Source of the DNA: Lachnospiraceae bacterium | Lineage (GTDB): Bacteria; Bacillota; Clostridia; Lachnospirales; Lachnospiraceae | Reading direction: 5' to 3' | Length of the DNA: 47,962 nucleotides | Assembly: GCA_017449765.1 (NCBI GenBank) | Contig: JAFTFE010000139.1 | Coordinates: forward strand, 1-47,962 | Shown: piece after piece, positions 36,162 to 39,829 of the stretch | Numbering within the stretch: the stretch's first letter is position 1 | Layout: every line of letters begins with the position of its first letter | Position numbers and translations under genes: made by a program | Notes under the pieces: model-generated | The model's database searches: none | What the model was told of the DNA's origin: nothing | What the model saw: only the letters and a program-made list of their open reading frames with translations

Positions 36162-36265
36162 GAAATAGAATGATAATTCATTTATAAGTAGAATAACAAA
36201 AACTTTGAAAAACGTGTAAAACTAATATATAATGTTCCTAAAATCACCCCCACAGGAGACCAACC

Positions 36266-36850
36266 ATGCTTACCAAACTAAAATACGGAAATACAAATAC
36301 ATTTTTAATCCAAGGCAAATCCGGAAATATTCTAATCGATACCGATTATGCCGGTACGCTTTCTATGTTCTACCGAAGGATAAAAGAACATGGCATAACT
36401 GTAAAGGATATCGACTACATTCTTGCTACACATTATCATCCTGATCATATTGGTCTGGTTGGTGAACTTATGGAGCAGGGAGTGGGACTGATTATTATGG
36501 AATCACAAGCAGGAGCGGTTCATTATTCTGATGAGATATTTGCAAGAGAGCCGGGACTTAGATACAAGCCGATAGATGATAGTGCGGCGGTTTTGCTTTC
36601 CTTTGAGGAGAGCAGAGCATTTCTTGGAAAGCTTGGTATAGACGGAGAGATTATCCGGACTCCGAGTCATAGTGTGGACAGTGTGTCAGTTGTTCTTGAT
36701 GAGGGGATATGCATTGTGGGAGATTTGGAACCGCTTGCGTATCTTACGGCTTATGATGATAACAAAGAACTTGCCGAAGATTGGGACAAGGTGATGTCGT
36801 ACAAACCTAAGGTGGTATATTATGCACATGCAAATGAGAAGAGGTTTTAG
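36266..36850 (+). CDS. MBL-fold metallo-hydrolase
   Basis: A 194-residue metallo-beta-lactamase-fold enzyme. The metal motif HYHPDH lies at residues 56-61 (His 56, His 58, Asp 60, His 61). Further ligands are likely in TPSHSVDSVSV (His), VGDLEP (Asp) and the late YYAHAN. The protein is compact and probably cytoplasmic; the substrate is unknown. The ATG follows AGGAG by 6-7 bases. A terminator follows at 36873. The first 80 bases of this gene with its upstream site are duplicated at 38131-38210. Confidence 0.85.
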   Translation: MLTKLKYGNTNTFLIQGKSGNILIDTDYAGTLSMFYRRIKEHGITVKDIDYILATHYHPDHIGLVGELMEQGVGLIIMESQAGAVHYSDEIFAREPGLRYKPIDDSAAVLLSFEESRAFLGKLGIDGEIIRTPSHSVDSVSVVLDEGICIVGDLEPLAYLTAYDDNKELAEDWDKVMSYKPKVVYYAHANEKRF

Positions 36851-36872
36851 AAATTATATATTATAATCTTAC

Positions 36873-36922
36873 AAAGAGAGCAGGTCTGCATTGGACATGT
36901 GCGGCACATACTGCTCTTTTTT
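36873..36922 (+). terminator. Terminator of the MBL gene, repeat copy B
   Basis: AGAGAGCAG pairs with CTGCTCTTTT; full stem from 36873-36883 with 36911-36922, plus an inner ATGTGC-G-GCACAT (36897-36909). The first 25 bases resemble copy A at 35781. The remaining gap to 37080 is AT-rich, with a small AGCATA-ATATGCT palindrome near 36964; no gene is supported. Confidence 0.75.
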
Positions 36923-37080
36923 GCTGTTAATATTGAATTTTATCAAATAATTAACTTGTTTTAGCATAATATGCTCAAAAAATGTCAAATTATAGGATTT
37001 CAAACAAAATTTTTGTTTTATTTTAATTTTTTTGTTGTAGAAATGAAGAGTGAATATACATTGTGGGAGGTTGGAAGGAT

Positions 37081-37144
37081 AAAAAATGGCGGGGAACTTC
37101 CCCCGCCGAAGATGGACCTGGGTCTTTCGACCAGCCCGATTTTA
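37081..37144 (-). ncRNA. Structured RNA repeat downstream of the DUF3800 gene (copy 1)
   Basis: Read on the minus strand, the element starts at the DUF3800 stop codon: TAAAATCGGG, then GGTC-GAAA-GACC (37132-37121), GGTCC, and GGCGGGG/CCCCGCC (37107-37101 with 37094-37088), ending in ATTTTTTA. It shares ATCGGGCTGGTCGAAAGACC and the second hairpin with copy 2 at 37844-37911. The final hairpin plus T6 is a good intrinsic terminator for the gene. Confidence 0.7.
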
Positions 37145-37825
37145 CAACTTTCGTTTTCGTATATGCTTGAGATAGTTTTTCTTGAAGTCTCGCATTGTAT
37201 CAAAAAACTCAAGTTCGGATTTTGTGAATGAATTATGTTCAGCTTTTTCTGCGAGCAATTCTACCGTACAAATCAGATCCGCAACTTGAAAAAGCTTATA
37301 ATCTACAGGTTTAACTTTACGCATTTCAACGTCAGTAAAAAGTGTATTAAAAACTGATGTAATTATTCGTGTTAGTTGTGTTTGACCATTATCATAGTAC
37401 ACAATAATTTTGTCAAAGCTGTTCCAAAAATCATCTCTAGAATGGAGTTCTTGTGATATGAGTTTACTGAGCTTTGCAGTCTGTATTATTTCATCTTCAC
37501 ATTCCGACTTTTTTACTCTTACAGTAAAGTATTTGATTGGAAGGCTGATGGTAAAAAAGTAAAGCACATTAAAAAGATGTTTTCTACTCTCAATTAAATC
37601 ATTTTCATATACACTTTCACGTCTTATGAGAGGACCAGTATGTATAGCGTGATTTTTATATCCGAGATTAGCTGTTCTATATTCTAATCCTTGTATTTTA
37701 TCTGTTATTTCATCTTCCTGATTATGAAGAACCATTGTAACATAGTAATAAGGAGAGTGATAGTCATATGGACCAAAATCTCCACTTTCATCTATGAAAC
37801 AACTGAGAATTTTTTGTGAAGCCAT
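37142..37825 (-). CDS. DUF3800 protein, putative RNase H-fold nuclease
   Basis: A 227-residue protein. The family hallmark FIDESGDFG (Asp 12, Glu 13, Asp 16) opens the protein and LFQVADLICTVE near residue 190 gives the late Asp. DUF3800 proteins are uncharacterised; the spaced acidic residues are compatible with an RNase H-like fold (inference). A minus-strand ribosome binding site, AGGGAG, precedes the ATG. The gene lies between two copies of a hairpin-rich repeat on the same strand, one in the 5' leader and one from the stop codon to the terminator. DUF3800 genes are known to be accompanied by structured RNA motifs, so the set is probably one functional unit. It runs against all neighbours. 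Confidence 0.85.
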   Translation of the reverse strand: MASQKILSCFIDESGDFGPYDYHSPYYYVTMVLHNQEDEITDKIQGLEYRTANLGYKNHAIHTGPLIRRESVYENDLIESRKHLFNVLYFFTISLPIKYFTVRVKKSECEDEIIQTAKLSKLISQELHSRDDFWNSFDKIIVYYDNGQTQLTRIITSVFNTLFTDVEMRKVKPVDYKLFQVADLICTVELLAEKAEHNSFTKSELEFFDTMRDFKKNYLKHIRKRKL

Positions 37826-37843
37826 ATTTGTTTTTCTCCCTAA

Positions 37844-37911
37844 ATAGAAATTGGCGGGGGTTTCCCCCGCCGCTCGGTGGACCAGGGTCTTTCGACCAGC
37901 CCGATTTCTAT
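37844..37911 (-). ncRNA. Structured RNA repeat in the DUF3800 leader (copy 2)
   Basis: On the minus strand: outer arm ATAGAAAT (37911-37904), core ATCGGGCTGGTCGAAAGACC with the GAAA-capped GGTC/GACC hairpin (37897-37886), then GGCGGGGG-AAA-CCCCCGCC (37871-37853) and the closing arm ATTTCTAT (37851-37844), which pairs with the first. The result looks like a closed multi-helix junction. It begins about where transcription from the promoter at 37944-37916 should start. Relative to copy 1, an A-U pair of the outer helix becomes G-C, a compensatory change. Confidence 0.72.
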
Positions 37912-37915
37912 ATTT

Positions 37916-37944
37916 ACAATAGCATAAAACCGGATTTATTTCAA
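37916..37944 (-). promoter_or_regulatory. Promoter of the RNA-DUF3800 transcript
   Basis: Minus strand TTGAAA (37944-37939), 17 bases, TATTGT (37921-37916). The predicted start, about 7 bases further (near 37909), coincides with the first base of RNA copy 2. The rest of the gap to 38130 is AT-rich with nothing else recognised. Confidence 0.6.
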
Positions 37945-38130
37945 TATATTGACTGAAAATAATTCGAAAAATCTAACTATCCGTTTCAGCTTGAAAGTAT
38001 GTTAGCAGTATCCCGAAAGAAATGCAATAGTAAAGTGCTGCCATTTTTATAATATTCACCATTTTATAAAATGATACATAAAAAATTATGAGGTTTAATT
38101 AAATTTGTGTTATCATTGGTTACATAATCG

Positions 38131-38229
38131 CCATCACAGGAGACCAACATGCTTACCAAACTAAAATACGTAAATACAAATACATTTTTAATCCAAGAAA
38201 AATCACGTAATAGAAAGGAGCAACCATAA
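38131..38229 (+). pseudogene. Duplicated 5' fragment of the MBL-fold gene
   Basis: From CACAGGAGACCAA through the ATG at 38149 and about 20 codons this repeats the start of the MBL gene at 36249-36325 almost exactly; the product begins MLTKLKYVNTNTFLIQ, as in the intact gene. It then diverges and stops at 38229, four bases before the broken aldo/keto reductase. It is a remnant of a duplicated gene whose body is gone. Confidence 0.85.
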
Positions 38230-38233
38230 TAAT

Positions 38234-38723
38234 ATGAAATACAGAATAAACAAACGCACAAAAGATAAAATCAGCGAGATTGGTATGGAGACTGCTTATA
38301 TCGGAGAGGAAGAGCATAGTGAAGCTGTCAAGACCGTGCGCTATGCCTATGAGCATGGAATCAATTACTTTGACCTTGCTGCCGGTGACGGCAGTGCATT
38401 TGGTATATTTGGAGAAGTTTTATGAGCTTAGCGAGGAAGAGCTGGATTACAGTATCATCGGAAGCTTTGCTCCGCCGGAGGCAAACGGAAAGTGTGTATA
38501 TTGTAACCATTGTAAGCCTTGCCCTGTGGGACTGGATATCGGGATGATCAATAAGTTCTACGATCTGGCGAAAATCGGAGACGATATGGCAAGGGCGCAT
38601 TATCATGCACTGGACACTAAAGCGGGCGATTGTATCCGTTGTGGACATTGTAACAGCCGTTGTATGTTCGGAGTGGATCAGATGAGCAGGATGCAGGAGA
38701 TAAAAGAGTATTTTGGGGAGTGA
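38234..38723 (+). pseudogene. Aldo/keto reductase with deletion and frameshift
   Basis: The N-terminus (KYRINKRTKDKISEIGMETAYIGEE, then AYEHGINYFDLAAGDGSAFGIFGE) matches clostridial iron-sulfur aldo/keto reductases and ends at a stop near 38425. In another frame, from about 38408, the C-terminus follows: ELSEEELDYSIIGSFAPPEANGKCVYCNHCKPCPVGLDI and CIRCGHCNSRCMFGVD, two 4Fe-4S motifs. The complete family member is about 370 residues; roughly 200 central residues, including the catalytic barrel, are missing at the junction near 38410. Not functional. Confidence 0.88.
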
Positions 38724-38816
38724 CATGTATGGGGCGTATAGGCCTATATCGGTTAACGGAATAATTGATTCAGTAAAATTAAGAATAAAATATAAAAAAT
38801 AGGATAATATAGATTT

Positions 38817-38860
38817 TTAGGGAACTTTATGTTATTATATACAATGTAAAAGTTCCCTAA
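38817..38860 (+). promoter_or_regulatory. 12-bp inverted repeat just before the Fic gene
   Basis: TTAGGGAACTTT (38817-38828) and AAAGTTCCCTAA (38849-38860) are a perfect inverted repeat with a 20-base AT-rich loop that contains TATTATATAC, a possible -10 region. The ribosome binding site GGAGG begins at 38861, directly after the right arm. It could be an operator or a hairpin that hides the site. Confidence 0.65.
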
Positions 38861-38874
38861 GGAGGTAATATAAT

Positions 38875-39816
38875 ATGGAGAACTCTTTTGATACAATTCA
38901 ACAGTTACTACAGGAAAAGGCAGATTATCAGGCACGGTTGAATCTTATTCCATATGACGGTTCTCCTGAGGTTAAGGAGAACAGCAGCGGAAAATATCTG
39001 TATATCAGAAAAAGGGTTAACGGAAGATTGACATCTACTTATGTGGATGTATATTCTGAGGAATTACATCAATTGTTGCTTCGTAATGTGAAAGAAGCAC
39101 GAGAATTAAAAAAACAAATTCGAAGAGTCGACAAAGAGTTGGTTTTAAACGGATATAAGGGGTACGAACTGTCTAAAGATGTTATTGTTAATATAGATTT
39201 TGCCAGAGCAAACTTAAAATCAAATATTTATGATCAGGCAATTTTGGAAGGAGTTGCCACGACATTTCCTCAAACAGAAGAAATCATTGAAAATGGAACA
39301 GTTAACGGAATGACTGCTGATGATGTACAGAAAATTCTAAATTTGAAACATGCATGGGAGTTCATTCTTGACAAGGATGTAATTCAATCGGATAGTAATT
39401 ACTATCTATTATGCCGTATAGCTAAGCTGGTAAATGAAGGATTTTTTTATGATGGTGGAAGGGTACGAGGAGTACCGATAAAAATCGGTGGAACAAGTTA
39501 TGTACCGCCAATTCCTATTGAGCTACAGGTTATAGAACACATTAATGATATTCTTGGTTCAGATAAGGAAACTATTGATATAGCAATCGAACTTTGTATG
39601 TATTGTATGAGAACGCAGATTTTTATAGATGGTAATAAACGTGCATCCGTGATATTTGCAAATCATTATATGATTGCTCATGGTCTTGGACTAATAATTA
39701 TTCCGGAAAATCATATTCCGGATTTTAAAAAGAAGCTTGTAAAATATTATGAAAGCGGAGACACTGGCGACATCAGTGACTTTTTGAAAGAAAACTGTTG
39801 GCGTAAATGTGTCTGA
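38875..39816 (+). CDS. Fic-family protein with Gln in place of motif His
   Basis: A 313-residue Fic/Doc-family protein. Residues 1-90 form a charged helical N-terminus. Near 125 the stretch ILEGVATTF resembles the inhibitory helix region that precedes many Fic domains. The Fic motif is at 248-256: QIFIDGNKR, compared with HxFx(D/E)GN(G/K)R. The GNKR half is Doc-like, and the catalytic His is replaced by Gln, so normal AMP or phosphate transfer is doubtful. TVNGMTADDVQKILNL and YVPPIPIEL (flap-like) also fit. The promoter region carries a 12-bp inverted repeat. Single gene next to a deleted aldo/keto reductase; AT-rich. Confidence 0.85.
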   Translation: MENSFDTIQQLLQEKADYQARLNLIPYDGSPEVKENSSGKYLYIRKRVNGRLTSTYVDVYSEELHQLLLRNVKEARELKKQIRRVDKELVLNGYKGYELSKDVIVNIDFARANLKSNIYDQAILEGVATTFPQTEEIIENGTVNGMTADDVQKILNLKHAWEFILDKDVIQSDSNYYLLCRIAKLVNEGFFYDGGRVRGVPIKIGGTSYVPPIPIELQVIEHINDILGSDKETIDIAIELCMYCMRTQIFIDGNKRASVIFANHYMIAHGLGLIIIPENHIPDFKKKLVKYYESGDTGDISDFLKENCWRKCV

Positions 39817-39829
39817 TTATTGATTAATT

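Follow-up and report, generated by a model that had tools for sequence, protein, structure and literature searches.

DUF3800-XI RNA as a candidate antitoxin of a predicted DUF3800 nuclease in Lachnospiraceae

A stretch of 47,962 nucleotides from a Lachnospiraceae bacterium (assembly GCA_017449765.1, contig JAFTFE010000139.1; hereafter the window) carries a DUF3800 gene with a structured RNA element on either side. What does this RNA do for the gene, and why are there two copies of it? The original prediction, made from the letters of the window, offered several answers: the RNA is processed from both ends, guides the protein, inhibits it in the manner of a type III toxin-antitoxin system, or marks a mobile unit. 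Inhibition is the answer that our comparative evidence favours; the prediction as a whole is partly supported by sequence comparison. We consider it probable, by sequence and by analogy, that the RNA and the gene make up an RNA-antitoxin/nuclease module within a mobile unit and that gene-less copies of the RNA in phages act as decoys. The observations behind this are the layout of the locus, the covariation of the RNA, its near-obligate presence 5' of the gene, the co-divergence of RNA and protein, the subtype mismatch of the 3' copy, sharp-ended units, and the gene-less phage copies with their neighbours; from them we infer nuclease activity, toxicity, RNA-protein binding, neutralisation, defence and decoy function.

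The DUF3800-XI RNA and its gene

Both elements matched the Rfam family DUF3800-XI (RF02975), one of the models against which the original prediction proposed to check them. The upstream (5') element scored 65.6 bits (37856-37903) and the downstream (3') element 60.3 bits (37092-37138), both above the gathering score of 37.8 bits. Their boundaries, 37842..37905 and 37077..37140 on the reverse strand, were taken from R1, a model built in this analysis, under which the 5' element scored 72.7 bits. The elements are 78% identical over 64 nt, with a start-to-start spacing of 765. The presence of two DUF3800-XI elements around the DUF3800 gene (37142..37825, reverse strand; 227 aa; Pfam PF12686, E 3e-8) is real and far above chance.

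The 5' element, of subtype CCCTGGTCCACC, consists of a GNRA-capped hairpin with a two-base bulge, a short linker and a second, terminator-like hairpin (37853..37871, reverse strand) that lies between RNA and gene. The 3' element belongs to another subtype, CCCAGGTCCATC. As predicted, it begins at the stop codon (3 nt past it by the Rfam boundary) and ends in a terminator hairpin, with a T-run (37088..37107, reverse strand), which is probably the terminator of the gene. Both second hairpins were among the terminator-like sites of the region (4 vs 0.8 expected). The predicted sigma-70-like promoter, TTGAAA-N17-TATTGT, is present at 37916..37944 on the reverse strand and matches 9 of 12 consensus bases; this consensus match taken alone is weak and no better than shuffles (7 promoter-like sites in the region vs 4.8 expected).

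We aligned 71 of the 84 extracted elements, excluding 13 weak or near-duplicate ones (alignment A1). The bulged, tetraloop-capped hairpin and the second hairpin were paired in 93.4% of cells, 10 of 17 pairs had changes on both sides, and none of 500 shuffles reached the observed value on any of five measures. The conserved structure is these two inner hairpins, and as two nested hairpins they account for the counted covariation. An outer helix with one compensatory change had also been proposed. We observed this helix in the predicted minimum-free-energy fold of the 5' copy and not in that of the 3' copy, and across 92 units 113 of 500 permutations of the flanks equalled or exceeded it. We rejected the outer helix as a conserved feature, and because it is at chance level the single A-U/G-C difference is not evidence for it. 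The 24 nt upstream of the element folded at -3 kcal/mol or better in 68 of the 92 units (mean z -3.2 vs mononucleotide shuffles); in most units this sequence is a separate 5' hairpin.

The protein is a predicted nuclease. Alignments of its relatives (A2, and A3 with 64 of 75 proteins) contain the conserved motifs DESGD, IHxxPxIRxE, YYDxGQ and QxAD. An RNase H fold is reported for the DUF3800 family in an excerpt of PMC10910872, and our fold assignment follows that source. Pfam returned DUF3800 alone, with no ToxN, CptN or TenpN fold. By sequence, the protein had no homology to solved structures at E up to 5, and its matches to PHROGs were weak (E 0.047 or worse).

We observed that relatives of this gene are almost always preceded by the RNA. 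Among the best 80 of 355 relatives in genome_contigs, 79 had a 5' RNA (L215 is cut by a contig end). In 397 genomes of the family, the RNA was present at 34/34 full-length unbroken genes with E 1e-80 or better, a count weakened by the 30 genes that built the profile. The four independent genes were those of G039, where the RNA is cut by a contig end, and of G041, G089 and G224, where it was below the Rfam cut-off or absent from the Rfam match list. A further 341 genomes of the class held three new full-length clade genes (G634, G700, G547), all with the RNA, and 7/7 full-length clade genes outside the profile's own 30 thus had a 5' RNA. These gene-first samples overlap in part.

The reverse did not hold. 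RF02975 matched in 60 of the 397 family genomes under strict filters, with few candidates scored per genome. The RNA-first set comprised 81 sources (the window and 80 loci; the weak matches G374 and G316 were excluded and G089 was added only later). The gene was intact at 30 loci, broken or cut at 15, and not found by protein profile at 36, a count that may include overlooked short remnants and loci that stop early. Repeats without DUF3800 genes had been named in advance as a finding that would speak against the prediction; their occurrence (36/81) argues for an RNA acting in trans, not against function. Median RNA scores were 74.5 bits beside intact genes, 74.3 beside broken or cut genes and 66.9 at gene-less loci. 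Gene-less copies often stand beside nucleotidyltransferase- or AbiE-like genes (by eye). One in the window's genome (L038, G000:C175) has a nucleotidyltransferase-like gene on one side and a ToxN gene (Pfam PF13958, 5.7e-33) on the other, at a locus that adjoins a cluster of six tRNA genes. Where RNA and gene occur together they co-diverge: across 92 units the Mantel correlation of RNA and protein distances was 0.61, a value reached by none of 2000 permutations (largest 0.16).

We propose that the module runs in the order promoter, structured RNA, intrinsic terminator, nuclease gene. Most transcripts would stop at the second hairpin, leaving the 5' RNA in excess, and this RNA would bind and silence the RNase H-fold DUF3800 nuclease in trans. 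Rare read-through past the terminator would allow the enzyme to be made. Phage infection may upset the balance, and the freed nuclease would then harm the cell, as in abortive infection. On this proposal, clade genes would hardly ever lack the RNA, and RNAs would often lack the gene, because a free antidote is cheap and a free nuclease harmful.

Could the RNA instead activate the protein? As in CRISPR and OMEGA systems, it might be a required cofactor or guide of a DUF3800 defence nuclease, and the phage copies competitors. RNA and protein do co-diverge, and Cas12a2 and type VI-F/V-A2 loci have DUF3800 proteins with an RNase H fold beside them (excerpts of PMC10910872 and PMC12669027). However, we saw no variable, unpaired, guide-like stretch beside DUF3800-XI. 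The upstream sequence folds in most units, a terminator-like hairpin lies downstream, and the transcript appears to be hairpins and a short linker, which goes against the suggestion that the RNA guides the protein. Activation would not by itself account for the frequent survival of the RNA without the gene either, and we regard it as quite improbable.

Gene-less phage copies and the RNAs of PBECR4

The promoter region of the window unit (37905..38090, reverse strand) is conserved in two other DUF3800 units of the same genome (79% and 83%) and in the congener G400 (75%). Its 180 bp recur at 78% in another congener, G404, ahead of a unit with the predicted nuclease PBECR4. The order in G404 is promoter region, two tandem repeats, terminator-like hairpin and PBECR4 gene (Pfam PF18813, 3.2e-18). 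Rfam returned two matches on this locus at E up to 1, both below cut-offs and not credible for the leader. A layout resembling type III systems, with PBECR4 preceded by two pseudoknot-type repeats in tandem and a terminator-like hairpin, was seen at L207 (G404), L326, L329, L334 and L335.

An H-type pseudoknot accommodates nine such repeats (four genomes, one phage), with 95.6% pairing and 12 two-sided cells (0/500 shuffles); as the structure was derived from the same sequences, this count is biased towards it. Support was weaker on pairs with two-sided change (14/500 shuffles), and further pair types were not above shuffles (463/500). This alignment (A5) excludes both repeats of G086:C36, which have the same letters as those of G027, and the second repeat of G131.

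PBECR4 is also headed by other RNAs. Upstream of 26 of 35 PBECR4 matches, we assigned, from drum and PBECR4 coordinates and by eye, 9 drum RNAs, 4 two-repeat RNAs, 7 RNAs of a third repeat type and 6 unclear cases. The third type (GTTGGCAG-CAACA...) heads PBECR4 at L307, L308, L311, L313, L316, L319 and L321 (by eye). In 200 genomes, 15 of 18 hits to drum (RF02958) were directly followed by PBECR4 (e.g. L309/L337 and L306/L343), 13 by coordinates and, by Pfam, one intact and one broken gene. By sequence, drum and PBECR4 are a second candidate RNA-antitoxin pair.

We found the DUF3800-XI element in 15 IMG/VR viral records. Three carry DUF3800, which adjoins a tape measure-like gene in L116 and L121. 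From the other 12 (about eight lineages by their flanks) both DUF3800 and PBECR4 were absent over the whole record, and such records may be fragments, which weighs against reading them as gene-less phages. In L119/L123/L127 the element follows a drum RNA (88.5 bits) that it abuts; in L120/L124 it lies ~40 nt behind two PBECR4-type repeats; in L118/L125, L301 and L302 it stands within a tRNA array. L122 and L124 encode terminase large subunit, portal and exonuclease families, with the RNA between exonuclease and terminase, L119, L300 and L302 encode phage-type proteins, and L301 has phosphoesterases only; L117 and L118/L125 were outside this check.

The phage copies have kept the fold. In an alignment of eight of them, fitted to the model, 94.7% of cells were paired, with 11 two-sided cells (0/500 shuffles; 41/500 for pairs with two-sided change). 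The second hairpin lacks its T-run in L117, L118, L120 and L302 (by eye). Because these four phage lineages keep the hairpin without the T-run, it seems to matter as structure and not only as terminator. In L122 (2672-2780) and L127 (3778-3880), DUF3800-XI is followed by a further conserved stretch that ends in a terminator-like hairpin and may be a third RNA of the same slot. A search of INPHARED phages with two phage RNA slots gave no match. Patterns for two other RNA subtypes had 0 matches each in viral contigs, and the two-repeat PBECR4-type pattern matched just the two known records there.

In the antidote reading, the gene-less phage copies would be phage-carried antidotes, that is, decoys, which two lineages stack with RNAs that head PBECR4. 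We tentatively propose, at somewhat less than even chances, that some phages keep an 'antidote slot', meaning a tRNA array or non-coding stretch in which RNA antitoxins of unrelated RNA-controlled nuclease systems are stacked (DUF3800-XI of DUF3800; drum or pseudoknot repeats of PBECR4).

The main rival to this reading is a cis-regulatory leader: the RNA would serve the DUF3800 mRNA as attenuator or as binding site for autoregulation, gene-less copies would be its relics, and the 3' copy would have been co-opted as a terminator. The RNA does lie 5' of nearly all clade genes and ends in a terminator-like hairpin, and gene-less bacterial copies score lower overall. Against it, gene-less phage copies have kept the fold with compensatory changes, and those of L117, L118, L120 and L302 retain the second hairpin but lack the T-run that a terminator would need. 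Two phage lineages place their copies beside RNAs that head another nuclease, and the 15 loci with a broken or cut gene keep a well-scoring RNA. We consider a leader unlikely.

Several points nevertheless weigh against an antitoxin. Presence beside almost all genes is also what a leader would show, and persistence after gene loss also fits a relic leader; the lower scores of gene-less bacterial RNAs mean that some are decaying. Unlike a tandem-repeat antitoxin, the RNA consists of one motif. The window protein fits no PADLOC model, and the phage copy in L300 matches weakly (28.7 bits). At L257 no recognisable 5' RNA was found in the ~100 bp before the contig end, where a different terminator-like hairpin lies. 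No DUF3800-XI match was found within the locus of a distant unbroken relative (L358, G556:C17; 225 aa, E 1e-46) or within those of the distant fragments G705 and G703; pairing with the RNA is thus a property of this clade and not of all DUF3800, and the G556 relative may pair with another RNA or none. The toxicity of DUF3800 and its binding and neutralisation by the RNA are predictions from sequence. We still favour an antidote because the RNA is near-universal in the clade, outlives the gene, co-diverges with the protein, has promoter and layout in common with a pseudoknot-repeat/nuclease pair, and stands gene-less in phages, twice beside the RNA of another nuclease.

The 3' copy and the mobile unit

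A second element on the same strand was found in 4 of the 81 RNA-first sources: the window, C131 of the same genome, G360 (weak, 28.5 bits) and G288. The pair in G288 (L112) encloses a nucleotidyltransferase-like gene and not DUF3800 (by eye). Same-strand bracketing of intact DUF3800 units thus stands at 3/30, with one pair (G360) weak. A nucleotidyltransferase-like gene in place of DUF3800 was also seen behind a DUF3800-XI element at L064 (G273; by eye). L090 has a decayed additional copy just upstream (21 bits). From the protein side, 0 of 80 genome_contigs loci, 78 of them with at least 300 nt behind the gene, had a same-strand copy 3' of the gene; one (L273) had an inverted copy there, and L239 had a chance-level match of 15.7 bits far upstream. 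In the congener G400 the ortholog, 81% identical, has kept its 5' RNA, and behind the gene is an ordinary terminator-like hairpin with no 3' copy. On these counts and this ortholog, the bracket is rare and dispensable, and bracketing as a general arrangement, which was to be looked for in related loci, was rejected.

The 3' copies also differ in kind from their partners. The window's is at a distance of 0.07 from the 5' element of a paralogous locus in the same genome (C54) vs 0.20 from its own partner; the C54 protein is only 46% identical to the window DUF3800. The 3' copy in C131 is at 0.10 from L290 vs 0.27 from its partner. These distances rule out a duplication of the 5' copy as the origin of the 3' copy. 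Of the original view that two near-identical elements flank the gene, the shared orientation and family stood, and their descent as copies of one element did not. Because they are nearer to the 5' elements of other loci than to their partners, the 3' copies are best read, by sequence, as orphan elements from other DUF3800 subtypes that came to lie behind the gene by chance. Processing from both ends is not supported, given the G400 ortholog and the different subtype of the 3' copies. Under the antitoxin reading, the window's 3' element would be an orphan antidote of another DUF3800 subtype, left beside the gene and now at most its terminator. Two gene-less elements, L082 (G301:C3, directly behind clpX) and L114, begin a few bases past the stop codon of an unrelated gene, like the window's 3' copy. 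In relatives, no clean boundary of an empty site behind clpX could be read; the last codons of the gene differ.

Units of RNA and gene have moved as a whole. Five pairs of units from different genomes are 88-98% identical (L071/L073, L084/L085, L039/L046, L090/L091, L051/L062). Within each pair the common stretch begins 52-82 nt ahead of the RNA, immediately before the promoter, and ends at the stop codon or ~30 nt beyond. Comparing up to 4 kb on each side, less at contig ends, we found no further similarity at E 1e-3 outside the unit except the decayed upstream element of L090. In the window, the DUF3800 unit and a Fic gene lie within a 2968-bp island (36858..39825) that G400 lacks between the corresponding two neighbours, with AATTAT at both junctions. 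These near-identical, sharp-ended units in different contexts indicate, by sequence, that the unit is mobile, which bears out one half of the idea that the RNA marks a mobile unit; the other half fails, as the shared stretch runs from promoter to stop and not from copy to copy.

Mobility also raises the possibility of a selfish hairpin element, like REP/RAYT or a MITE, with DUF3800 as an RNase H-fold transposase and the two window copies as its ends. Near-identical units with sharp ends in different contexts would fit, as would the dispersed solo elements, some of them right behind genes such as clpX, and the AATTAT at both island junctions. But the limits of the unit are the promoter on one side and the stop codon, or a point just beyond it, on the other, and not two copies of the element; they do not coincide with hairpins, unlike the hairpin-ended termini of IS200/IS605 and REP-RAYT transposons, and inspection by eye revealed no obvious terminal repeats or target duplications there. 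A same-strand 3' copy occurs in just 3 of 30 intact units, the window's 3' copy is of a different subtype, and the compensatory changes imply an RNA. We consider a selfish element very unlikely.

The variable site has further traces. At 38126-38212 the window has a decayed 87-bp duplicate of the start of a metallo-beta-lactamase-fold gene (36242-36329), followed by an apparent broken oxidoreductase gene; these are signs of past duplication and loss.

Relation to known systems and significance

Both window elements fall within RF02975 beside a PF12686 gene, and the association with DUF3800 is already in the family name; the Rfam listing names no function. Relative to that listing, what is new here is the subtype mismatch of the 3' copy, the asymmetry of gene and RNA, the phage copies and the drum/PBECR4 link. 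A 2017 paper reportedly described DUF3800 motifs, and the present findings may overlap with it. Our literature search, at the level of titles and the starts of abstracts and with bioRxiv and most subscription papers outside its scope, found no proposal of the DUF3800-XI/DUF3800 or drum/PBECR4 pairings.

The nearest tested precedent is AbiF/RCd22 of Clostridioides difficile (RF03085, abiF motif). As given in part of PMC12373285, a conserved hairpin RNA upstream of a toxic protein ends in a terminator and acts as antitoxin in cis and trans. By analogy, a hairpin RNA motif here stands upstream of a predicted toxic protein. The protein is Abi_2/AbiF there and DUF3800 here, that system has two RNA motifs vs one, and it was experimentally tested.

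In type III systems (ToxIN, CptIN, TenpIN), promoter, RNA, Rho-independent terminator and nuclease gene form an operon, and RNA and protein co-diverge (an excerpt of PMC5086642). The sequence layout here has the same order, and RNA and protein likewise co-diverge. The antitoxin there consists of tandem repeats (same excerpt), whereas a single element lies 5' of the gene here; the protein is ToxN there and DUF3800 here; and no pseudoknot was noted in DUF3800-XI, with no search aimed at pseudoknots made. Because tandem repeats and a ToxN fold were looked for and are absent, we do not file the module as classical type III.

For the phage copies, the precedent is pseudo-ToxI of phage PhiTE, the RNA half of a bacterial RNA-antitoxin system carried by a phage, with escape shown experimentally (PMC3475682, in part). 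Here, too, the RNA occurs in phage records that lack the predicted toxin gene (12 of 15 viral records). PhiTE carries one RNA class, whereas RNAs of two systems stand together in two lineages here, and their decoy function would be by analogy.

Rfam names no function for either DUF3800-XI or drum. If the antitoxin reading is right, they would be the RNA halves of RNA-antitoxin defence modules with nuclease folds new to that role. Where pseudo-ToxI is a single precedent, the stacked gene-less phage copies would amount to natural multi-antidote arrays. Further systems could then be sought by a simple rule, namely RNA classes found ahead of a nuclease gene in bacteria and on their own in phages.

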